A stretch of DNA of 32,888 nucleotides from positions 1-32,888 of the forward strand of contig JAJCZP010000021.1 of NCBI GenBank assembly GCA_029262315.1, read 5' to 3'. Both the position numbers and the translations under genes were made by a program. Below are positions 6,266 through 17,624 of the stretch, one piece after another (position 1 is the stretch's first letter; each line of letters opens with the position of its first letter). The notes beneath the pieces are model-generated. The model was not told where the DNA came from. It saw nothing but the letters and a program-made list of their open reading frames with translations, and made no database searches. Source of the stretch: Deltaproteobacteria bacterium. Lineage in GTDB: Bacteria > Desulfobacterota > Binatia > UTPRO1.

Positions 6266-6649
6266 TCACGGCCCGGTGGCCGGCTCGTACTGGCATTGGC
6301 AGAAGTCGCGGATATGGGCGACCAGCGCCTTGATCTTCGCGTCACCGAGATAGTCGAACGATTGCATCATGGGACTCTTGCCGACGCCCAGGCCGCCCTT
6401 CTTGATCATGTCGAAGATCTGCTGGTCGGAGATCGGACTCATGATCGCAGCGCTCGAGAACTTACGCGGCGTGGGTTTCAGCACGGCCGAGCCGGGCCCG
6501 TCGGCGTTGCCCGTAGCGCCGTGGCACACCGCGCACAGCTCGCCGTAGACCTGCGCTCCCTCACTTCCGGCGATCGCATCCGCGCGCAACGCGATCAGGC
6601 CCAGCCCGACCACGAGGACCGCGATGACGACCCCTCGAACATTGCTCAC
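6266..6649 (-). CDS. Monoheme c-type cytochrome of the nos cluster
   Basis: Protein of 127 aa with an N-terminal signal sequence (about residues 5-27) and one heme-binding site CAVCH (C39, C42, H43). A Met-rich PMMQSF motif offers the distal heme ligand. It is a periplasmic class I cytochrome likely to pass electrons to or from the Nos system. Its GTG start overlaps the nosL stop by four bases (GTGA), so it is translationally coupled to nosL and is the last gene of the operon. Small cytochromes of this kind (NosC-like) are known in clade II nos clusters. The exact electron partner is inference. Confidence 0.88.
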   Translation of the reverse strand: MSNVRGVVIAVLVVGLGLIALRADAIAGSEGAQVYGELCAVCHGATGNADGPGSAVLKPTPRKFSSAAIMSPISDQQIFDMIKKGGLGVGKSPMMQSFDYLGDAKIKALVAHIRDFCQCQYEPATGP

Positions 6650-7167
6650 TCCCCTGCCCTCCTGACCAGCTCGTACAACGGTGCAGGCTTCGCGTCCCTG
6701 CGGCCGGCAACGGCAATCAGCTCGTCAAGCGTCCGCACCGTCCCGTCGTTCTCCATCGCCACCTCCTGGGCGCGCGCCTCCGCGGCGAACGCGGCGGCGC
6801 CATGGCCCATCGGGCTACTGAGGTCCTTGCTGACGGCGAAGAAGGCCGTATCGGCGGGGATCCAGTCTTCGGTGTCGTGATCGTGAACCCAGAACTTCGC
6901 CACGACGTTTGGATGGCGTCCATGGAACAACACCATGTCGCCGATGTCGTCGAATCGATGTGTTTCCCCTTGCCGTGTGATCGTCGCCGCGGCGAAACGT
7001 GGGGCCTCGATGCGCATGCGGCAATGATCGCAGCTGTCCTCCCCAGCGCGAATCTCGGGTGGAACCTCGAGATTCGGCGCGGGGTCACACCCGGCCCCCA
7101 GAAGGCCCGCCACGAGCAGAAGACAGACGACACGCCTCACGGCGCGACGACCTGACCGTGCGCGCAC
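6646..7167 (-). CDS. nosL: NosL copper chaperone lipoprotein
   Basis: Protein of 173 aa from GTG 7167; GTG 7140 is an alternative with a shorter signal. Neither has a strong ribosome site, and longer reads overlap the upstream gene. The signal peptide ends at an atypical lipobox LGAGC (C27), suggesting lipid anchoring on the periplasmic face. The NosL copper site C46-x-x-C49-x-M51 (CDHCRM) is present; most NosL have CxxCM or CGM-type variants. NosL delivers Cu(I) to apo-NosZ. The MVLFHGRHPNVVAKFWVHD stretch and the C-terminal helix fit the family. It lies 10 bases after the cupredoxin-like gene and overlaps the terminal cytochrome gene. Confidence 0.9.
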   Translation of the reverse strand: MRARSGRRAVRRVVCLLLVAGLLGAGCDPAPNLEVPPEIRAGEDSCDHCRMRIEAPRFAAATITRQGETHRFDDIGDMVLFHGRHPNVVAKFWVHDHDTEDWIPADTAFFAVSKDLSSPMGHGAAAFAAEARAQEVAMENDGTVRTLDELIAVAGRRDAKPAPLYELVRRAGE

Positions 7168-7177
7168 GAACCCGTCG

Positions 7178-7858
7178 TCACGGTTTGTCCGCTGACTCGG
7201 GCGCGGGCGCGAGCTCGACCTCCAGCTCGACGGCGTCCGCATCGCCGACCTCGACGCCGCTCCGCTTGGTGATCACGCCTTCGTGCCAGATGCGGACCTC
7301 ATGCGTGCCCGCCGGCACGTTCGGGATCGAGAAGCGCCCGGTCCCGTCCGTCACCGCCGCGTACGGATGGTCGAACACCAGCACATACGCGTGCTCTCCT
7401 GGATGAGGATTGCACACTACCTGGATGAATCCGGTGTCCTCGCGATAGCGATGGTAGGCGGTGATCGGCTTCTTCACCTCCATACCGGCCTCTGGAAGCG
7501 CGACGTTGTAGAGCGTCGCGCCGTAGTGCAATGGGCGCTGCGACTTTTCCTTCTGGTATGCGAGGCCCATGTACAGGTGGGTGTTGTGCAGCGTATCGTC
7601 GTCGTTCCGGAACACGAACGAGTTGCCGACGAAACCGATACTGACGTGCGGCTCGAAGCGACCGGAAACATGGCTGATGGTCGTATCGCGATCGGGCACC
7701 GTGCCGGCCAGCCCCTCGATCCACACCACCGCGGGCTTGCCGGCAGCGACACCCGCAATGTTGCCCTGCAACTCCGCCGCTTGCCCGATGTCGGCTCCGC
7801 AGACGAGTAGCAATCCCGATGCGACCAGGCTGGCACAAAAGACGTTCCGCAATCTCAT
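7178..7858 (-). CDS. Periplasmic cupredoxin-like protein with carboxypeptidase-regulatory-like tail
   Basis: Protein of 226 aa. ATG 7858 has a clear AGGAG ribosome site, and the longer open frame upstream overlaps nosY antifunctionally. Signal peptide about 1-28. The first domain has a plastocyanin-like layout: FVFRNDDDTLHNTHLY (H91/H94) and VVCNPHPGEHAYV (C149, H152, H156), which can provide a His-Cys-His copper site. The end (about 160-215) is a beta-sandwich of carboxypeptidase regulatory type (GRFSIPNVPAGTHEVRIWHEG). Similar proteins are annotated as methylamine-utilisation-type or plastocyanin-like. Its place between nosY and nosL suggests copper handling or electron transfer to NosZ; that is inference. 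Confidence 0.75.
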   Translation of the reverse strand: MRLRNVFCASLVASGLLLVCGADIGQAAELQGNIAGVAAGKPAVVWIEGLAGTVPDRDTTISHVSGRFEPHVSIGFVGNSFVFRNDDDTLHNTHLYMGLAYQKEKSQRPLHYGATLYNVALPEAGMEVKKPITAYHRYREDTGFIQVVCNPHPGEHAYVLVFDHPYAAVTDGTGRFSIPNVPAGTHEVRIWHEGVITKRSGVEVGDADAVELEVELAPAPESADKP

Positions 7859-7875
7859 ATCTGCTCTCCTGAGAC

Positions 7876-8709
7876 TCATGTGAGCGTGTCGTTGGCGACG
7901 CGGCGTTGAAAGAGGGCGTAACTGAGGCAGAGCGGCACGACGACCCACGCGACCAATACTCCCGCCAGGAGCGCGGTCGACGGCACGAATTCCGTCAAGG
8001 TCGACAGACCAAGGGATGAGGCCGAGCTGCCAATCCATTTGAAGCAGAGAATTCGGAACACGTCGGTCGGGTTCAGCAACAGGAGCGCGCGAAAGAGGCC
8101 CGAAGGCAGCTCGCCCCCGGTCGCAATGAGCACGCCTACCAATACCAGATCGAAGACGAACACGGAGCCGATCCAGACGAACAGCGAGGCAACGACGGCC
8201 CGCGTACGGTCCCGCGAGAGCAGCGAGAGCAAGAACGAGAGCCCGAGAAAGACGACGCCGAGCACGAGCGCCAGCCCGCACAGCAGAACGTACGCGCCGA
8301 CCTCGACCCCAGACCAGAGCGTGAGCACGACGCCAGCGACGCCGAACCCCGACACGATGGCAACCGCGAGCGCCAACGCAAAGCCGAGGAACGTGCCGGC
8401 AAAGTACTCCCCGGTCGAGATCGGATAGACGAGGATGAGATCGAGCACGCCACGCTGCTTCTCGTCGATGATCGCGCCGCATCCCATGATCAGCGCCAGC
8501 AGCGGCACGAGGTACACCGCGAGATTCATCAGGCTTGCGATCAGCGCCCCGCCACCGCGCACCCCCTGCACGCCCACCGTCGCCGTACCGAAGAACGCGA
8601 TCACCAGCACCGACGTCGCCAGGAGCATGGATACGATCCAGACCCAGCGGTTGCGGAGGCCGTCCGTCAGCTCCTTGCGGGCGACAGTCGCGATCGCACT
8701 ACTCGGCAT
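7876..8709 (-). CDS. nosY: NosY ABC transporter permease
   Basis: Protein of 277 aa with six predicted membrane helices, including VWIVSMLLATSVLVIAFFG near the N-terminus. The EKQRGVLDLILVYPIS loop is characteristic of ABC-2/NosY permeases. It forms the membrane part of the NosDFY complex, which with NosF ATPase and periplasmic NosD prepares the CuZ centre of NosZ. ATG 8709 overlaps the end of nosF by 11 bases and starts MPSSAIATVARKEL, the usual NosY N-terminus. Eighteen bases separate it from the cupredoxin-like gene. Confidence 0.92.
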   Translation of the reverse strand: MPSSAIATVARKELTDGLRNRWVWIVSMLLATSVLVIAFFGTATVGVQGVRGGGALIASLMNLAVYLVPLLALIMGCGAIIDEKQRGVLDLILVYPISTGEYFAGTFLGFALALAVAIVSGFGVAGVVLTLWSGVEVGAYVLLCGLALVLGVVFLGLSFLLSLLSRDRTRAVVASLFVWIGSVFVFDLVLVGVLIATGGELPSGLFRALLLLNPTDVFRILCFKWIGSSASSLGLSTLTEFVPSTALLAGVLVAWVVVPLCLSYALFQRRVANDTLT

Positions 8710-9595
8710 CGAAGTACGCCCCTTCGAGGGTGGGCTCCTCGACGTGCAGATGCTGGATCGTCTCTCCACAGTCACGGAGCCCCAGCAGAAACGCGGTCTT
8801 CTTCACTTGCGACACCTCCGCCACCAACGCCTCGCCGCGCCGCGCGACGGCCGCTGCGCCCAGCGCCGCAAGCGCGGCATGGAACGTCCCGTTCATCGCG
8901 CCCGTCCCATAGATGTGGACCTTTACCGGGAGGTCGAGATCCTCGTAGAGTTCCGGCAGCGTACCAAGCGCTCGCACCGCACCGTCAACGAGAATGCAAA
9001 TACGATCCACCTGACGACAGACCTCCGAGAGCCGGTGCGAGGAGATCACCACCGTCCGCGGCCCCCCCTCGCGCAGCAGCGCGAAGAAGTCGCGCACGCC
9101 TCGCGGATCGAGTCCCTCGATCGGCTCGTCCAGCACGAGCACCTCTGGGCTGCCGAGAAGGGCCTGCGCGAGGTTCAGTCGTTGCCGCATGCCCTTCGAG
9201 TACTCGCGCACCTTCCGCCGCGCCGCCGCACCGAGCCCGACGCGCTCGAGCAACGGCCCTACGGTTTTCGTATCCACGCCCCGTAGTCCGGCAAAGTACC
9301 GCAAGGTCTCCTCGCCGCTCAGATCGCCATGGAACTCGATCCGCTCGGGCATGAAGCCGAGCGTACGACGCAGCTCACGCCACGCCTCCCGATCCATGGG
9401 ATCTCCGTCGAGGAGGAGCTGCCCACTCGAGGGCTGGGACAGTCCCACCAGCATGCGGATGAGCGTCGTCTTCCCCGAGCCGTTGTGGCCGAACAGACCC
9501 ATCCATTCGTCCCTGCGGATCTCGAGGTCGAGGGGACGCACCGCCTCGATCGCGCCGAACCGCTTGGAGACCTGGTCGAGCCGGATACCCATCAT
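8699..9595 (-). CDS. nosF: NosF ABC transporter ATPase
   Basis: Protein of 298 aa. Walker A GHNGSGKTT is near residue 37, the signature is YSKGMRQRL (in place of LSGGQ, common in this family), Walker B is VLVLDEP, and the switch His is in VISSH. The C-terminal 90 residues are the usual NosF extension. It powers the NosDFY complex needed for CuZ maturation. ATG 9595 overlaps the TGA of the nosR-nosD gene by four bases (ATGA), implying coupled translation. A second ATG follows immediately at 9592. Confidence 0.93.
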   Translation of the reverse strand: MMGIRLDQVSKRFGAIEAVRPLDLEIRRDEWMGLFGHNGSGKTTLIRMLVGLSQPSSGQLLLDGDPMDREAWRELRRTLGFMPERIEFHGDLSGEETLRYFAGLRGVDTKTVGPLLERVGLGAAARRKVREYSKGMRQRLNLAQALLGSPEVLVLDEPIEGLDPRGVRDFFALLREGGPRTVVISSHRLSEVCRQVDRICILVDGAVRALGTLPELYEDLDLPVKVHIYGTGAMNGTFHAALAALGAAAVARRGEALVAEVSQVKKTAFLLGLRDCGETIQHLHVEEPTLEGAYFDAE

Positions 9596-12500
9596 CCGCC
9601 TGGAATGTGTGGCAGCTTCGCCAGCGATCCGTAGTACCGCTGGTGCGTCTCCGGATACTGCTCGAGGATGGATTCCCACTCGGGGTTCAGCGGCACCATC
9701 CGGGGTGCGGCATCGACGCCCTTCGGGACGGTGATCACCGGAAACTCGCGTTCAGCCAGCGCCAGCACCTGAAAGGCCGGACTGGCGAACAGCAGCTTTG
9801 CCATCGGATACTGCCACAGCAGCGAATCCACGAGCGTGTTCGAGTGATACGCCACGTCACCGCTGCCGTTGCCGTCGACGTCCCAGCCGACGTAGTCGCT
9901 CCAGAAGTTGCCATCCCACTCCTGATCGCGCGCGGCGACGAACTTCACTTGAATCTCGTTGGCCATGAATGAGTTGCCTTCGATCTCGTTCTCCTCCGAC
10001 CCCCCCCAGTAGTGCAAGCCCAGGTTGTTCCGTGCGATGAAGTTGCCGCGTATCGTATTGTAGAGCGAATTGTACACGAAGATGCCTTTGGAGTTGCCGA
10101 TGACGAGATTGTCGACCGCCTCGCTCCGGATCACCTGCGTCAGCAGGATGCCGTGCGTCGTGTTGTCGTACAGGACGTTGCCGCGGGCCTCGATCTTCTT
10201 GGAGAACATCAACGCCAGACCGACCATGTTTCCGGTGACGACGTTGTCGTTGTAGACGCTGCGGTCGCACCACATCGTGTGGACCGAGTAGCGTGAGTCC
10301 CGGATCGTGTTGCCGATCACCCGACAGTCAGTGCTGAGTTCCATGTAGACACCGTCGCGGCAGTCGGCCAGGGCGTTGTCCCTGATCTCCGCGCCGCGCG
10401 TATTCCACAGATGGACGCAATCGCCGCGCGCGTTCCGGTCCAGCGCACGGATGCCGCGGACCTCGTTGCCGACGATACTCACCCCGGGGCTGCCGTGCAC
10501 CCAGATCCCGAACCGACACTGCTCGATCAGGTTGCCGACAATCCGCACCCCGGTGGCTTCTTGCTCGACGCGGACACCGGCCTCCGAGAGCTCGAAGTCA
10601 TCGCCGCAACCACGAAGCGTGAGTCCCTCCACGTGCACGTCGGACGCAGCAACGACCAGGACATCCCCCGTGCCACCCGCGTCGATGATGGCGCCCGGAT
10701 CGCCGCGAATCGTCAGACGTTTCGTGACCACGACGCGCTCCGCGTAGACCCCGGGGCGCACGCGGATCGTATCACCGGCTCGACTGGCTGCGATCGCCGC
10801 GCCGATGGTCGAGAGGATCGGCGCCTCCGTCGGGTCGGTCGTCGCGCCCGAGCCCAGGGCCACCGTCCAGGTTCTCGCCACGGACGGCGCCGGGGCGAGA
10901 AGCCCGGCGAGCAGGAGCGCCCCCACCACCAGTCGCGGTGCCCGGTCTTCGCGCTTCGCGATGATCAGCTCGGGGCAAATGGCCTCGTCTTGACCCGTGG
11001 CCTGGCAGTCCCAGCACTGCAAGCACTCCCGGTAGTCGATGCGTCCCGTCGCATGAGAGATCGCCTTGGGCTCGCAGCCCTTGTAGCAGATCTTGCAACT
11101 CGAGCACTGCTCGTAGCGCTGGAGTGGCAACAGCGGTTTTCGGCCCGGCAAAGCCAGCGCGCCACCAAGCGGGCAGAGAAACCGGCAGAAGAACCGGTAC
11201 GAGACGGTCGACAGCAAGGTGATGGCGACAAAGTAGACGATGAACGCCGAGGGCCGTACCAGCCGGAGGATGAACGTCTTGAACGGCTCGACCTCGTTCA
11301 GCACCTCGGCTGCCGGCAGGTTGATGAACGAGACCGCCAGGATGCCGAGAAACGTGACATACTTGCCGCTGCGCCACACCGGCCCTGGATCCCAGGCGTC
11401 GATACGGTGCCGGATGCGCTCGGGACACAGCCGCTGCCAGATCGGAATCATCATCTCCAGCAGCGCGCCGTAGGGACAGAGCCACCCACAGAAGAAACCG
11501 CGCGCCCAGAAGATCATCGAGAGCGCGATCGCGATCCAGAACAGGAAGATCAGCGGCTCGGCCAGGAATATCTCGATCGGGAATGCAAAGTGCACGGCCG
11601 AAGTGAACAGCGTGAGAAGCTGCGTATTGCTCGGCTGCGCCTTCAGGATGATACCGACCCAGACGATGGCGATGACCGCGATCGTCCGATGCATCACCTT
11701 GCGGTAGGCAACCAAGCGTTTCCGGAAGCTGAACACGAGCGCCACGGCGGAGAGGAAGAGCCCGAACGCGACGATCGTCCCCGCGCGCTCCTGCCAGCGC
11801 GTCACCCAGAACGGCACATCCTCGACCACCAGCTCGCTGGGCAGGCGGTACTCCATCAGGAATGTGCGGTAGGCCCGCTCATCCCCCGCCCGATAGGGCA
11901 GCGTCAGGTGAAACGTGAACGGCTCGGCAGGATCGAAGGTGGGATCGGTCACGAAGAAGATGCCGCCCTCCCGGAGCGCCGGGGCGCCTTCGATCGGGAG
12001 CTGCGGGAAATTGATCGAGTCGACGTCCTTGAAGACGAACAGGCCAGCGCCCTGCTCCACGGAGAAGCGGTCGAAGATTCCGCCACGGGCGAACCCGGCA
12101 CCTTTGAACGAAAGCTCGCCCTGCGCACCGATGAAGAGCGCGCTCCCCCCGTCCTTCTCGAGGCGCTCCTTGACGATGGCGTAGTACCGCTCGCCGAGCA
12201 GGTTCTTGCCGATCGTGGGAGCATCGAGCACCGCGAACCGGAGGTCGAGGATCGGCGCTGAGCCCTGGCTCTGCACCTGGTCGGGCTGCACCACGAGGCG
12301 CCCGATGGCCCCCTGGGCGTCGAGGGCATCCCACGTCGCCGGCTCGAATCGCTCCGCCACCCGCCGGGTCCGGACCTCGAATGCCTGGACGATACCCACG
12401 GCCCGACCGACCCGCCGCCCTGCCTCCAAAATCGTGGCGTTCTCGGCCACCGCGGTGACCGTCGCGCCGCTGATGGCGTCCACGGCGACATGGCCCGGAC

Positions 12501-12939
12501 GCGGCTTGTCGCTGATGATGATGCGATCGCGAATATCCTTGCCGACGTACTGGGCGACGAACTCGTGAATCACCTTCTCGCTGAGCCCGATCAGCACAAT
12601 GGGCTCGGCGTGATGGACGATCTTGATACCGGTGATCGTGCCCTTGGTGTCCAGGCCGACCAGCGTGTTGAGCGTGTGGCCGGAGTAGCCGGGGATGTCG
12701 ACCAAGTCGTCCGTCAGCAGGACGTAGCCCAGAAGGCTACGGGTGTCCTTCTCGCCCGGACCGTACCCCGTCCAGTACGTGTCCGCGCGCTCGAACTGCA
12801 CCGCCCCTGGCAGGACGTCTCCCGGCTCGTACTCGTACTTCTGCTCACCGAACGAAACATTGGCGAGCCCGACGCCCGGCGTTCCCGCGCACAGGCCGAG
12901 CAGGATCAGGAGAAGGGCGAGCCCCGTCCCTCTCCTCAC
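9592..12939 (-). CDS. nosR-nosD: NosR-NosD fusion: membrane flavo-iron-sulfur protein joined to periplasmic Cu-maturation protein
   Basis: Single frame of 1115 aa from GTG 12939, which has GAGGG upstream and begins a signal peptide; TTG 12972 is an in-frame alternative. Residues 1-660 are NosR: periplasmic FMN-binding domain with the flavinylation motif SGAT (T160), membrane helices, two CxxxCP motifs (C484/C488, C585/C589), and two 4Fe-4S sites (C612/C615/C618/C622 and C639/C642/C645/C655). Residues 670-688 are a hydrophobic stretch ending APSVA that looks like a former NosD signal peptide. Residues 690-1115 are NosD: right-handed beta-helix with CASH-type repeats. The linker would carry NosD from the cytoplasmic Fe-S end back to the periplasm, so the topology works. 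NosR feeds electrons to NosZ and sustains it; NosD works with NosF/NosY. Normally they are separate genes of about 700 and 430 aa. GTG codons at 10929 and 10926 could allow separate NosD translation, but no ribosome site precedes them. Confidence 0.92.
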   Translation of the reverse strand: MRRGTGLALLLILLGLCAGTPGVGLANVSFGEQKYEYEPGDVLPGAVQFERADTYWTGYGPGEKDTRSLLGYVLLTDDLVDIPGYSGHTLNTLVGLDTKGTITGIKIVHHAEPIVLIGLSEKVIHEFVAQYVGKDIRDRIIISDKPRPGHVAVDAISGATVTAVAENATILEAGRRVGRAVGIVQAFEVRTRRVAERFEPATWDALDAQGAIGRLVVQPDQVQSQGSAPILDLRFAVLDAPTIGKNLLGERYYAIVKERLEKDGGSALFIGAQGELSFKGAGFARGGIFDRFSVEQGAGLFVFKDVDSINFPQLPIEGAPALREGGIFFVTDPTFDPAEPFTFHLTLPYRAGDERAYRTFLMEYRLPSELVVEDVPFWVTRWQERAGTIVAFGLFLSAVALVFSFRKRLVAYRKVMHRTIAVIAIVWVGIILKAQPSNTQLLTLFTSAVHFAFPIEIFLAEPLIFLFWIAIALSMIFWARGFFCGWLCPYGALLEMMIPIWQRLCPERIRHRIDAWDPGPVWRSGKYVTFLGILAVSFINLPAAEVLNEVEPFKTFILRLVRPSAFIVYFVAITLLSTVSYRFFCRFLCPLGGALALPGRKPLLPLQRYEQCSSCKICYKGCEPKAISHATGRIDYRECLQCWDCQATGQDEAICPELIIAKREDRAPRLVVGALLLAGLLAPAPSVARTWTVALGSGATTDPTEAPILSTIGAAIAASRAGDTIRVRPGVYAERVVVTKRLTIRGDPGAIIDAGGTGDVLVVAASDVHVEGLTLRGCGDDFELSEAGVRVEQEATGVRIVGNLIEQCRFGIWVHGSPGVSIVGNEVRGIRALDRNARGDCVHLWNTRGAEIRDNALADCRDGVYMELSTDCRVIGNTIRDSRYSVHTMWCDRSVYNDNVVTGNMVGLALMFSKKIEARGNVLYDNTTHGILLTQVIRSEAVDNLVIGNSKGIFVYNSLYNTIRGNFIARNNLGLHYWGGSEENEIEGNSFMANEIQVKFVAARDQEWDGNFWSDYVGWDVDGNGSGDVAYHSNTLVDSLLWQYPMAKLLFASPAFQVLALAEREFPVITVPKGVDAAPRMVPLNPEWESILEQYPETHQRYYGSLAKLPHIPGG

Positions 12940-12986
12940 GGAGCGCGATCCCTCTCGGCCGCCGTTGTCCAAATCAGGTCGTGCGG

Positions 12987-13035: not shown

Positions 13036-14862
13036 TCAAGCCTTGGCCTTCACGATGAGCCGCATCCGCATTTCGAGATGCAGAGCATGGCAGAAGTTGG
13101 TGCAGTAGATCCAGTGCATGCCGGGCTTGTCGGCGGTGAAAGTGACCGATTTGGTTTGGAAAGGGCCGACGGCGAAGTTGATGTTGTAGTTCGAGATGGC
13201 GAACCCGTGCGCCAGATCGGGAATCTCGTCGTTGTTCGTCACGATGAAGGTCACTTCATCGCCCTCGTTCACCTCCACGCGCTGCAGTCCGTAGACGGGC
13301 GCGCTGGCCGTCACCCTGACGGTGACCTTCTTCCCATCCCGCTCGATCCCGCTCTCCGTGACCGCCAGGGGATGCTCATCCATCCGCGGGCGATGCTTGA
13401 CGATGGGCTCGATGATGTCGCGACGCACGATGATGCAATCATGCGGCTCGATGTAGGCAGGCTCGTCCTTGACCAGGACCATTTTCTCGTTGGAGATGTC
13501 GACGAGCTGGTCGTTCTCCGGCTTGATGGGCCCGACATTCAGGAACCGATCCTTCGAGATCTTATTGAGGGCGACGAGGAAGTTCCCGTCCGCCTCTTTC
13601 GTCTCGGCCATGGACGCCATCGTGTGACCGATCTGGTAGTGGACGTCGAGACGATCGACGACGGCGGTGTCGCCCGGCTTCGTGTTCCCGTAGATGTCGA
13701 TCGCCTTCTGGATGTTCCACTTGACGACCTGGCTGTCGATGAAGAGCGAGGTGTAGGCGTTCCCTCTGCCGTCGTAGGTCGTGTGCAATGGGCCGAGGCC
13801 GATCTCCGGCTCCGCGACGATCGTATCCTTCGGCTCGATCTTGCCGTCGAACGCGTCCGCCAGCTTCTCGATCGAGATGACACTCGCGGTTGGCGAGACC
13901 TTGCCGGACGCGATCGCGTACTTGCCATCCGGACTGACGTTGACCCCATGCGGGTTCTTCGGCACCGGAATATAGAGCGTCAAGCCGGAGTCCAGCCCCC
14001 CGTCGAGCATCTTGATCCCGTCCACGACATTGAACTTCCCGCTCGCGAGCGCCTCCTTGATGCGGTCCCAATCGAACACGACCAGATAGTCGCGATCCTT
14101 GGCGAGCATCTCCGAGATCGTCGCGCCGCCCTCGGAGTTGTAGGACGTCGCGAAGGAATACCGACCGCTGTAGTCGGTGGCGGCCAGATCGAGGTTCGTC
14201 GGCACCATGACCTGGGCGATGATCTCCATCTTCTCCGCGTCGATGATCGTGTGCACGCCCGTATAGGTCGAAGCGTCCACGGGGTCGCCGCGCCCATCGT
14301 TCTTGAGTGGCGCCCGGAACTCGCTGTTGAGAATGACCCACTCGGTGTGGGGAGCACGCTGCGGGAAGATGCCGTGCGATCCCTGGGTGTGGGGAATCGG
14401 CAGAATCGTATCGACCTCGAGCAGATCGACGCGGATGCGGGCGACGCGGTTGTTGGCCTTGTCGTTCACCCACAAGTACTTCCCGTTGTACGTGCCGTCC
14501 GTGTACGAGCCGTGGACGTGGTGGGTGTCCCCCACATACGTGTCCCCGAGCATGGCCCGGCTCTCATTCGTAATGCCCCACCCGCTGCCCGAGTCGATGT
14601 TGAAGACGGGAATACGCTTGAAGACGCGCATGGAGGGGAGGCCGAGCACGCGCACCTCACCCGAATGCCCCCCGCTGAAGAATCCGTAGTAATCATCGAG
14701 CTCGCCGGGACGCACTTCGGTTCGCAACGTCGTCTTGGCCGCCTGCACCGGAGGCGGTGCCCATCCGTTCGCGAGCACCAGCGAACCGACGACGCCGGCA
14801 ACGACACCGATCAGCAGTGCCACACCGACGGGACGCATGACCTTCTCTCTGTTGTTGCTCAT
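13036..14862 (-). CDS. nosZ: Nitrous oxide reductase NosZ, Sec-type (clade II-like)
   Basis: Protein of 608 aa reducing N2O to N2 in the periplasm. ATG 14862 has AAGGAGA eight bases upstream. The N-terminus (MSNNREKVMRPVGVAL, then a hydrophobic core) lacks a twin-arginine motif, so export should be Sec-dependent, as in clade II. Seven CuZ histidines are visible in THHVHG (two), GSHGIF, NPHGVNV, PLHTTYD, IGHTM and EPHDC. The CuA site is H552, C587, C591, H595 and M598; the 35-residue spacing from H552 to C587 equals that in Pseudomonas stutzeri NosZ. The residue two after the first CuA Cys is Asn rather than the usual Trp; that ligand is a backbone carbonyl, so function should hold. It lies between a diheme cytochrome gene and nosR-nosD, with a hairpin after its stop. 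Confidence 0.97.
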   Translation of the reverse strand: MSNNREKVMRPVGVALLIGVVAGVVGSLVLANGWAPPPVQAAKTTLRTEVRPGELDDYYGFFSGGHSGEVRVLGLPSMRVFKRIPVFNIDSGSGWGITNESRAMLGDTYVGDTHHVHGSYTDGTYNGKYLWVNDKANNRVARIRVDLLEVDTILPIPHTQGSHGIFPQRAPHTEWVILNSEFRAPLKNDGRGDPVDASTYTGVHTIIDAEKMEIIAQVMVPTNLDLAATDYSGRYSFATSYNSEGGATISEMLAKDRDYLVVFDWDRIKEALASGKFNVVDGIKMLDGGLDSGLTLYIPVPKNPHGVNVSPDGKYAIASGKVSPTASVISIEKLADAFDGKIEPKDTIVAEPEIGLGPLHTTYDGRGNAYTSLFIDSQVVKWNIQKAIDIYGNTKPGDTAVVDRLDVHYQIGHTMASMAETKEADGNFLVALNKISKDRFLNVGPIKPENDQLVDISNEKMVLVKDEPAYIEPHDCIIVRRDIIEPIVKHRPRMDEHPLAVTESGIERDGKKVTVRVTASAPVYGLQRVEVNEGDEVTFIVTNNDEIPDLAHGFAISNYNINFAVGPFQTKSVTFTADKPGMHWIYCTNFCHALHLEMRMRLIVKAKA

Positions 14863-14945: not shown

Positions 14946-15812
14946 CTAGCGTTGCGCCACCTGGGCGCCGGCCATCAGCTCCAGGCAGTACGACACGATG
15001 TCCCAGCCCTGCTGCGGCTCGAGCACTCCCTCGTAGGAGGGCATCGGCGTCCCGTCGAGGCCGGTCGCGAACGTACGATAGATGTCGGTGGGGCTGGTCC
15101 CGCCCTTCAAGCCACCGGAGGTGAAGTCGAACGGAAGGATCTTGTCGCCCCAGTTGTCCTTCAGCTCTGGGGACGATGGCCCATCCCCTTGCCCGCTGGC
15201 ACCGTGACACTCCACACAGCCCGCATCGTCGTAGAGCTGCTTGCCGCGCGCGATCGACTCGCTACTTCCGACGTAGTCGGGCACGGCACCGATCGCGATT
15301 GGCGCCATCACCTCCTGCTCGGTCCACCGCTTCGAGAACGTCTTGATGTAGGCGATGACGGCCTCCCGCTCCTCGACTGACAGGTCCTTGTGCGAGGGCA
15401 TCGCCGAGCGCGGAATGCCGTTCGTGATCGTCCGCATGAGATCGGCATCGGTCGGGAGTGAGCCCGTCGGCGTCGTGCGAAACTTGTACATGCCCGCCGT
15501 GAAGTCGCGGGGATACGTGTAGACGACGATGCCGCTCTGCTGGGCTCGATGGATGACGCCCATCAGCCCCTTCCCGTCGCCGTTCACCCCATGACACACG
15601 ACGCAATAGGTGTCGTAGACCTTTTTCCCCGCCGCGACCTGCGCGGCGTCGTCCGCCTGCGACGGTGCGGGCGCCAGGCCCACCAGGCACACGAGCGCCA
15701 AGGCCGCGAAGCACCCCCGCCCACGTGCCGTGGCGACTCCGAGCGTCGAAGCGCCCTGACTCTCACGTCGTTGTACAGCGCTCGAATCGAAACTGCGGGT
15801 CGGTTCTGTCAT
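14946..15812 (-). CDS. Diheme c-type cytochrome of the nos cluster
   Basis: Protein of 288 aa. ATG 15812 has GGGAGGG upstream and is followed by a long n-region and signal core (about 34-53, ending PAPSQA). Two cytochrome c domains each have a heme site: CVVCH (C70, C73, H74) and CVECH (C199, C202, H203). AMPSHKDL and PMPSYEG provide distal Met candidates. It is first in line before nosZ, 83 bases upstream, so it is a likely direct electron donor to the CuA site. Clade II nos clusters often carry such cytochromes (NosC-type). Calling it specifically NosC1 or NosC2 is not justified from sequence alone. Confidence 0.9.
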   Translation of the reverse strand: MTEPTRSFDSSAVQRRESQGASTLGVATARGRGCFAALALVCLVGLAPAPSQADDAAQVAAGKKVYDTYCVVCHGVNGDGKGLMGVIHRAQQSGIVVYTYPRDFTAGMYKFRTTPTGSLPTDADLMRTITNGIPRSAMPSHKDLSVEEREAVIAYIKTFSKRWTEQEVMAPIAIGAVPDYVGSSESIARGKQLYDDAGCVECHGASGQGDGPSSPELKDNWGDKILPFDFTSGGLKGGTSPTDIYRTFATGLDGTPMPSYEGVLEPQQGWDIVSYCLELMAGAQVAQR

Positions 15813-15873
15813 CGTGCGTACCCTCCCGTCGGCATGGTCAACCTGTCTGCGAATCGCCTCACGATTGCGTCTC

Positions 15874-16389
15874 TCACTTCCGCCCCAGGGGCTTGAGCCT
15901 GCGGCGTGCGGGCTTCCGAACGTTCGGTCTCCCGGCATCGCGCGCACCTGGCCCCCGGCCGAGGACGGATCTCCCGCCCTTCGTCAGCTGCGCGACGTCG
16001 TCGATGCTTTGCGCGCTCAGCATGTCGAGCATTTGCGTACGAATCCCCCGCCATTGCTCATGGAGAGGGCAGTGTTTTCCTCGCTCCGAGCACCCCGGAA
16101 CGCCGATGATGCATCGCTGCATCAGATCGTAGCCTTCCACCGCCTCGATCACCTCGAAGAGCGTCAGCTCCGTGGCAGGTCGCGCCAGGGTAACACCGCC
16201 GCGAGGTCCCTTGTGCGACGTCAAGAAGCCCATGCGCCTGAGGTTCTGAACGATCTTCGCGAGGGATGGCCCGGGAACGTGGAGCGCCTCTGCGATCTCC
16301 TGCACGCGGACCGGTTGTGCGTCACGCCCCGCGCTCGCGATGTGGATGATGGCACGAACCGCGTACTCCGACGCTCGAGAGAAGAGCAT
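15874..16389 (-). CDS. Rrf2-family regulator with three-cysteine cluster site
   Basis: Protein of 171 aa. ATG 16389 follows GGAGGG; a TTG one codon earlier is less likely. The N-terminal winged helix (about 1-70; SRASEYAVRAI, then GPRGGVTLAR) is typical of Rrf2. Cysteines C93, C100 and C107 match the Fe-S-binding positions of IscR and NsrR, but the spacing here is C-x6-C-x6-C, longer than in either. This fits an Fe-S sensor responding to NO or redox state. As the first gene before the cytochrome-nosZ operon, it probably controls nos expression. The C-terminal 35 residues are basic and low-complexity, unlike short NsrR. A general IscR-like role is the alternative. Confidence 0.88.
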   Translation of the reverse strand: MLFSRASEYAVRAIIHIASAGRDAQPVRVQEIAEALHVPGPSLAKIVQNLRRMGFLTSHKGPRGGVTLARPATELTLFEVIEAVEGYDLMQRCIIGVPGCSERGKHCPLHEQWRGIRTQMLDMLSAQSIDDVAQLTKGGRSVLGRGPGARDAGRPNVRKPARRRLKPLGRK

Positions 16390-16556: not shown

Positions 16557-17624
16557 CTACCGAACCGGGACGGGCGGCGCGGCAGGCACCGGCCAGCCGC
16601 TCGAGACGAGACGGTCCTGGTCCTCGTCGATCAGCAAAGCCTCGACACCGGCGGTACGCTCGACGAAAGCCAGCCCATCGACGGCACCCATCACGACGAC
16701 CGCCGTGGCAAGGGCGTCGGCTTCGATCGCGCGGCGAGCCAGGACCGTCACGCTGATCAGCCCGCGTGTCGGCTGCAGCGTCCGCGGATCGAGAATATGA
16801 TGGTAGCGAATCCCATCGACCTCGAAGAACCTCTCGTAGTCTCCGGATGTCGATACCGCACCGTCACCGACCTCCACGGCCATCAGCGGGACGTCGTCCC
16901 CCCTCGGATCCTGCACGCCGACGCGCCAGGGACGCCGACCCGGGCCACGGCCGAACGCTCGCACATCTCCGCTGATCTCGACGACACCGCCGCGTATCCC
17001 TTCGGCGCGGAGTACCTCGACGACGCGATCAGCCGTGTAGCCTTTGGCGATGCCCCCGAGGCCGAGGGCCATACCGGACCGGGCAAGCGTGATCGTCCCC
17101 TGCGCCCGCTGAACCGAAAGTCCGCTCAGCTCGATCAAGGGGTAGAGCGTCTGTAGCTCCTCGGAAGACGGCACACGCGGATTCTGGGGGATCCCCCACA
17201 GCTTGATGGCGGGCCCCATCAGGGGATTGAACGCGCCGCCGGTCTGCGCCGCGACCGCCGCCGCGGCATGCGCGAGGTCTGCGAGGTCCCGGGGGACACG
17301 CACCGGGCCCGTGCCGGCCTGAGCGTTCAAGCGACTCAGGTCGCTGTCGCGGCGATACGAGCTGAGCAACTGCTCCAGACGGGCCACCTCGGCAAAGCCG
17401 CGCTCGATCGCGCGCACCCCCGAACGCTCATCGCTGGCCGCCACAGTGAGCGTGACGACGGTGCCCATGTGATGGGCCGAGCGGGTGACGATCTCCTCGT
17501 CGCGGGCGGCGCAGGACGATGCGACACCGAAAAGCGCCAGGGCCATGACAACGCGAAGGAGCGATTGCGGTGGGCGGCCGATCCGCTCGCTGTCAGCCGC
17601 GCACACACCAGAAACGTGGAGCAT
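16557..17624 (-). CDS. apbE: ApbE-family FAD:protein FMN transferase (NosX-like lipoprotein)
   Basis: Protein of 355 aa that covalently attaches FMN to threonine in target proteins. The signal region ends in a lipobox-like VASSC, so it is probably a periplasmic lipoprotein. Family motifs include HHMGTVVTLTV, the GGIAKGYTADR loop, ISGDVRAFG, HHILDPRT and the late EADALATA metal site. The neighbouring NosR half carries the matching flavinylation threonine (SGAT), so NosR is the likely substrate, as NosX/ApbE serves NosR elsewhere. It lies upstream of rrf2 with a promoter-like gap between them, so it may be separately transcribed. The start at ATG 17624 lacks a strong ribosome site; an internal start closer to the signal core is possible. 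Confidence 0.9.
   Translation of the reverse strand: MLHVSGVCAADSERIGRPPQSLLRVVMALALFGVASSCAARDEEIVTRSAHHMGTVVTLTVAASDERSGVRAIERGFAEVARLEQLLSSYRRDSDLSRLNAQAGTGPVRVPRDLADLAHAAAAVAAQTGGAFNPLMGPAIKLWGIPQNPRVPSSEELQTLYPLIELSGLSVQRAQGTITLARSGMALGLGGIAKGYTADRVVEVLRAEGIRGGVVEISGDVRAFGRGPGRRPWRVGVQDPRGDDVPLMAVEVGDGAVSTSGDYERFFEVDGIRYHHILDPRTLQPTRGLISVTVLARRAIEADALATAVVVMGAVDGLAFVERTAGVEALLIDEDQDRLVSSGWPVPAAPPVPVR

Follow-up and report, generated by a model that had tools for sequence, protein, structure and literature searches.

Introduction

NosR and NosD serve as helpers of the bacterial enzyme for the removal of nitrous oxide, a greenhouse gas, and they are usually encoded by separate genes. On plasmid pHG1 of Cupriavidus necator H16 the nos genes follow the same order as the one described here (nosZ, a NosR/NirI family protein, NosD, an ABC ATPase, a permease and NosL), and there too genes for an FMN transferase and a cytochrome c are close by. 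The nosR and nosD of pHG1 are two genes 56 bp apart, whereas at our locus they form one frame. NosD is a chain of its own in the NosDFY maturation complex (PDB 7o0y, 7osf), which the NosD part of our protein matches. In FbcH, the cytochrome b/c1 precursor of Bradyrhizobium, the frame of a membrane protein runs on into a periplasmic protein that has a signal peptide of its own, and this precursor is reported to be cut by signal peptidase.

For P. stutzeri NosR the accessible text of PMC7660919 places the flavin domain in the periplasm and the Fe-S domain in the cytoplasm. The same text cites NosR as seemingly uninvolved in the assembly of the copper centres and as a possible donor of electrons to NosZ. 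Within the nos clusters of clade II a NosB-NosL fusion has been described in Dyadobacter and proposed for Flavobacterium, according to the available part of PMC9697520.

Here we analyze a nosR-nosD fusion gene in the window, i.e., the whole stretch of 32,888 nucleotides that was studied. A first-pass annotation made from the letters of the window had proposed that the fusion holds NosR and NosD together for good. The reading we prefer, with a probability of roughly 0.6, is that a conserved gene fusion makes a precursor which would be inserted as one chain and then be cut into NosR and NosD.

The fusion gene

The gene lies at 9592..12939 on the minus strand, as do all features given below, and codes for 1115 amino acids from a GTG start to a TGA stop at 9592-9594; an upstream TTG at 12972 is an alternative start. 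No stop interrupts the 1115 codons, which bears out the earlier claim of one continuous NosR-NosD frame. The full chain has a computed mass of 122.6 kDa, and the gene itself is the single match to the protein in its genome at E <= 0.001.

The NosR half starts with a hydrophobic segment (residues 7-25, 12865..12921, hydropathy scan) which is a NosR signal peptide or anchor. It is followed by an FMN-binding domain (PF04205, 33.5 bits against a cut-off of 22; residues 84-165, 12445..12690), within which a motif scan finds SGAT at residues 157-160 (12460-12471); we take this to be the motif of NosR in which a threonine, here Thr160, is flavinylated. The membrane block covers residues 387-575 (11215..11781, hydropathy scan). 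One CxxxCP motif is found at residues 484-489 (CGWLCP, 11473..11490) and another at 585-590 (CRFLCP, 11170..11187), and two [4Fe-4S] cysteine sets follow, CSSCKICYKGC at 612-622 and CLQCWDC at 639-645 (11005..11106). The features of the NosR/NirI family (two CxxxCP, two [4Fe-4S] cysteine sets and membrane helices) are thus all present, and the flavin threonine, helices and cysteine motifs were found where the first reading had put them. The Fer4_5 match (41 bits) is above the Pfam cut-off of 22. Against NF046105 the half scores 440 bits over profile positions 47-679 of 680, short of the cut-off of 1000, and it is 'NosR-like' by sequence rather than a certified equivalog of that family.

The putative mature NosD part, a right-handed beta-helix, comprises residues 689-1115 (9595..10875). 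The NosD half passes TIGR04247 with 398 bits (cut-off 300, profile 2-376 of 377) and PF05048 with 161 bits (cut-off 23.6). By sequence the NosD part matches 7o0y_A with an E value of 5e-75, and a fold search with the predicted structure ranked 7osf_A and 7o0y_A at the top, which confirms the NosD part only. The fold prediction of the whole chain was poor (mean pLDDT 64, pTM 0.40, nine rows), with the beta-helix modelled best, and it therefore says nothing about the join, the packing of domains or the topology.

The neighbouring nos genes

The same strand carries genes for an ApbE-type protein, a cytochrome c and NosZ upstream of the fusion and for NosF, NosY and NosL downstream. The ApbE-type flavin transferase (NosX-like; 16557..17624, PF02424 2e-86) is the likely donor of the NosR flavin, a role taken from the accessible text of PMC7660919. 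The cytochrome c ORF (14946..15947) has two matched stretches and a provisional start. Downstream, nosF (8699..9595) codes for the ABC ATPase; its first ATG at 9595 overlaps the stop of the fusion gene as ATGA, and a second ATG is located at 9592. The nosY gene for the ABC-2 membrane protein is given by its ORF limits, 7876..8775, with a provisional start, and nosL (6646..7242, PF05573 2.4e-14) codes for the copper chaperone. Between nosY and nosL there is an ORF with a CarboxypepD_reg match at its end (7178-8482, 3' part). As to these genes in relatives, NosF and NosY appear as a single ORF of 584 amino acids in G531 (L152:11499-13253), and in G1136 (L145:6800-7644) NosF falls into two ORFs that overlap, perhaps because of a fault in the assembly.

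The immediate upstream neighbour, nosZ (13036..14862, start assumed at MSNNREK), scores as the Tat-dependent type, with 827 bits against TIGR04244 (cut-off 625); the score against TIGR04246, the Sec type, is 513 and below 625. No RR follows the assumed start, and RRRF is found in frame just upstream of this provisional start. None of the nine NosZ copies read from the clade of full fusions (the window, L129-L134, L031 and L032) has RRxFL after the likely start, and seven of seven copies read outside it do. An RR pair is present in the NosZ of G464, in a different setting. All six Acidobacteriota copies read have a cysteine beyond a hydrophobic stretch, in the manner of a lipoprotein. Judged from these signals, the NosZ of the full-fusion clade may be attached to the membrane, its export signal seemingly having been changed in one event at most.

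Distribution of the fusion

A search for the NosR-NosD architecture elsewhere, as the first-pass annotation had suggested, found it in nine other genomes with 54-67% identity to the window protein, all in the window's class or in Acidobacteriota. In the window's class, where at most five candidates were scored for each genome, it was found in 3 of 148 genomes, and with two candidates scored per genome it was found in 2 of 395 genomes drawn from the window's phylum (window included in both counts) and in 4 of 396 drawn from Acidobacteriota, the genome taken as centre included. The class of that centre genome gave 7 of 193 genomes at E <= 1e-200, one of the matches being cut at a contig end. The named records of the fusions outside the window are Acidobacteria MAGs and one 'Deltaproteobacteria' MAG; the match in the latter agrees with the G379 match in both contig number and coordinates. 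Both ends are complete in eight of the ten fusions. In G527 the last residues are missing at a contig end, and in G529 the first third is missing at a contig end, with the flavin part on another contig.

The window genome is a draft of 298 contigs, and it has to be considered whether two separate genes were joined by a missed stop or a frame shift in assembly or sequencing, as a single wrong base count could do where there is a candidate overlap of 4 bp between the genes, as in some split relatives. Against this, the join recurs with a homologous linker and signal peptide in the nine other genomes at 54-67% identity, it is shared by eight more divergent Nitrospirota loci, and the third-position GC and the changes by codon position look coding across it. 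We rejected an assembly error on the ground of the nine other genomes, which also count against the missed frameshift or stop that the first reading had named as a danger, and consider an artefact extremely improbable. The junction is open in all ten full fusions, and for this reason the fusion is judged to be beyond chance.

The junction

The hydrophobic segment at the join, LVVGALLLAGLLAPAPSVA, spans residues 670-688 and reads from 10932 to 10876. The coordinates agree exactly with the earlier description of a hydrophobic join ending APSVA, and in the alignment the junction also coincides with the signal peptide of most NosDs that have a gene of their own, in accordance with the suggestion that it is a retained NosD signal peptide, here a putative added membrane helix (10876..10932). 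The order at the join is the CPxL of NosR, a positive linker (KREDRAPR in the window), the hydrophobic stretch and the first beta-strand of NosD. Over residues 651-695 the third codon positions have a GC of 0.87, and in all four pairs compared (window against G464, G379, G528 and G532; 35-37 junction codons) it is the third positions that change most. The junction is the least conserved stretch in the same comparisons, with 46-57% identity. The linker of the G531 fusion (L152, ORF 8994-11456) is far longer than in the other fusions and gives the impression of an inserted repeat element.

The hydropathy scan of the window protein gave the N-terminal segment, six partly overlapping segments within 387-575 and one at 670-688, and the NosR helix count is a reading of these overlapping segments. 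If the Fe-S domain is cytoplasmic, the last of these segments has to run from the inside to the outside, and NosD would then be periplasmic, as is proper to it. The junction helix is thus expected, from hydropathy and a cytoplasmic Fe-S domain, to return the NosD part to the periplasm, and the earlier claim to this effect agrees with the expected topology. A signal-peptide-like stretch, the predicted export signal of NosD, is present, internal instead of N-terminal.

Signal peptidase sites follow the (-3,-1) rule. A putative signal peptidase I site is Ala688/Arg689 (10875..10878), with Ser at -3 and Ala at -1. Position -1 is Ala in all ten full fusions; the neighbouring positions vary, with eight kinds of residue at -2 and six at +1. 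Position -3 is Ala or Ser in 7/10, Ile in 2/10 and Pro in 1/10, and position -6 is Pro in 7/10. The eight Nitrospirota fusions all have Ala, Gly or Ser at -1; it should be noted that the junction anchors were set by eye and that G1164 and G1170 had more than one option, so that the Nitrospirota counts lean in favour of the reading. Of 18 fusions, 15 have a strict -3/-1 site at the marked point, the misses being G802 and G527 with Ile and G528 with Pro at -3. A different strict site occurs slightly further upstream, by a few residues, in G527 and G528, and G802 has none in the scanned stretch. A hydropathy segment is found at 17 of the 18 junctions, that of G528 being below the threshold. As a control we looked at the exits of TM2 and TM4, which also have invariant Ala columns (in nine of ten sequences for TM2, G802 being without the motif, and in ten for TM4). 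These columns sit in stretches which barely vary. Invariance alone is therefore weak proof, and the argument lies in the contrast between the kept Ala and its variable neighbours.

An internal start just before the NosD signal peptide could yield a separate NosD besides the full-length chain. Start codons are indeed at hand: the window has GTG GTG at 10929/10926, an ATG is nearby in four of the ten full fusions (G574, G610, G802 and G529), G944 and G934 have an ATG with AGGAGG 12 nt upstream, and G532 has a GTG with the 4-nt match TAAG 9 nt upstream. Their position is not conserved, however, with none in the scanned stretch of G528 and G1083, and G532 with its 4 nt is the only one of the ten to match a ribosome-binding sequence at a spacing of 5-9 nt. 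With neither a ribosome-binding-like sequence at usable spacing nor a conserved start, initiation at GTG 10929/10926, which the first reading had held against a single product, is not favoured, and we find the production of two proteins in this way improbable.

Split and partly fused relatives

In Nitrospirota 17 of 295 drawn genomes match at E <= 1e-30, and 16 were examined (G1178 left out). The membrane/Fe-S half is in frame with NosD at eight loci and separate from it at seven; in each of the 15 loci where both parts of NosR were seen (L137-L150 and L152), the flavin part has an ORF of its own, apart from that of the membrane/Fe-S part. These two ORFs lie end to end with one in-frame stop between them in G531, G944, G934, G1083, G989 and G1192. 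About 8 kb separates the flavin-domain ORF from the fused membrane-half/NosD ORF in G1170 (L144:1443-2654 and 10588-12930). In G1061 the tail of NosR is joined to NosD, and the 14,000 bases inspected did not yield the remainder. In four of the seven separate pairs there is a 4-bp overlap between the NosR stop and a candidate start of nosD, and from such an overlap a small change of frame can fuse the genes.

Adjacent and separate nosR and nosD genes are found in G462 of the window's class and in G924 of Acidobacteriota. In Pseudomonadota 54 of 299 drawn genomes match at E <= 1e-40; among the matches listed none covers both halves, and the inspected loci of G1245, G1520, G1308, G1333 and G1397 show no NosR-NosD fusion. 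Among the 15 plasmid records listed of 242 no NosR-NosD is annotated as a single gene; NosR and NosD are separate in eleven of them, and in four there is no gene there. The length of an open frame was rejected as proof of fusion, as the one in G462 (1431) proved to be two ORFs, and likewise those in G1245 and G1520. G1333, G077 and G1397, which had odd match ranges or stops, are not NosR-NosD fusions upon inspection of their sequences.

Evolution of the link

A tree of 31 rows was made by a quick method from three domains, leaving out the junction columns; it was rooted with five rows with separate nosR and nosD, which have long branches, and one row of the tree covers less than half of the columns. 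The ten full fusions form one clade (SH-aLRT 100) in which the link was never lost. On the tree, the membrane half and NosD have changed between fused and separate at least four times, G1061 not counted, as estimated from metagenome assemblies and one quick tree; the fused G1043 and the separate G1192 are sisters with support 100. Repeated changes of the link are as expected if the finished proteins are identical whether made fused or separate. On the other hand, the unbroken fusion across the whole clade may mean, as far as a pattern in sequences tells, that the join itself matters.

An alternative is a tether, in which the junction helix is left uncut and NosD hangs from NosR by this extra transmembrane helix; the NosDFY assembly machinery would then be kept next to NosR, and perhaps next to a NosZ attached to the membrane. 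It would account for the fusion being kept in 10/10 members of one clade, which come from two groups and are 54-67% identical to the window protein, it does not need the strict site which is absent from the marked point in 3/10, and it fits with the lack of RRxFL in the nine NosZ copies of the clade, which are perhaps attached to the membrane. The NosB-NosL fusion, in which an assumed electron-transport membrane protein is joined to a copper protein, is a precedent in the part of PMC9697520 available. It is less easily reconciled with the -1 Ala and the signal-peptide pattern, which are kept amid changing neighbours, with relatives which encode NosR and NosD separately, and with the accessible text of PMC7660919, in which NosR is cited as uninvolved in copper-centre assembly. 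We regard a permanent tether as possible, though rather unlikely. A more speculative version, doubtful in our opinion, combines the uncut NosR-NosD with a NosZ that would be attached to the membrane and have lost its Tat signal. Together they would form a fixed unit for respiratory assembly, where the copper-sulphur centre would be built, and perhaps reductively activated, beside its electron donor.

The first-pass interpretation had likewise been that of a lasting join. Its fusion gene stands, as do the signal-peptide-like look of the junction and the expected topology; the lasting join and the coupling to CuZ assembly are conjectural. The join as a permanent one is disfavoured by the conserved site resembling that of signal peptidase I and by close relatives with the same gene order, some of which have the link and some of which do not, and the statement that the fusion physically couples electron supply to CuZ assembly is weakened by the available text of PMC7660919.

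A precursor model

The cleaved precursor, which we favour, proposes that the ribosome makes a single NosR-NosD chain. NosR would insert with its Fe-S domain in the cytoplasm, and the internal signal peptide would act as an extra inside-to-outside helix by which NosD is passed to the periplasm. A cut by signal peptidase I after Ala688 would then give a NosR of ~76 kDa, which would retain the signal helix at its new C-terminus, and a NosD of ~47 kDa, and the released NosD could join NosF and NosY. The gain would be that the two proteins are made 1:1 and inserted at one place, the supply of reductant and the maturation of the copper site being built together.

The model is favoured because of the signal-peptide-like junction, the kept -1 Ala and the switching of the link among relatives. 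Inheritance from an ancestral signal peptide could account for part of the junction pattern. It counts against cleavage that three of the ten full fusions have no strict site where it is marked; one of these, G528, is below the hydropathy threshold as well.

Comparison with known systems

In the open-access nos literature, as judged from titles and the starts of abstracts, a NosR-NosD fusion is not named. The difference from FbcH is that cleavage was shown there and is a prediction for the window protein. The occurrence of such a fusion in nature gives evolutionary support to the view that NosR and NosD belong together both temporally and spatially, and the fusion offers a ready construct for structural work on the entire machine. 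The NosB-NosL fusion resembles that of NosR and NosD in joining a membrane protein with an assumed role in electron transport to a Nos protein that binds copper (PMC9697520, available part). It is formed from other proteins in another clade, without NosR and NosD, and it is a precedent in nos clusters for the fusing of an assumed electron-transport protein to a copper protein.
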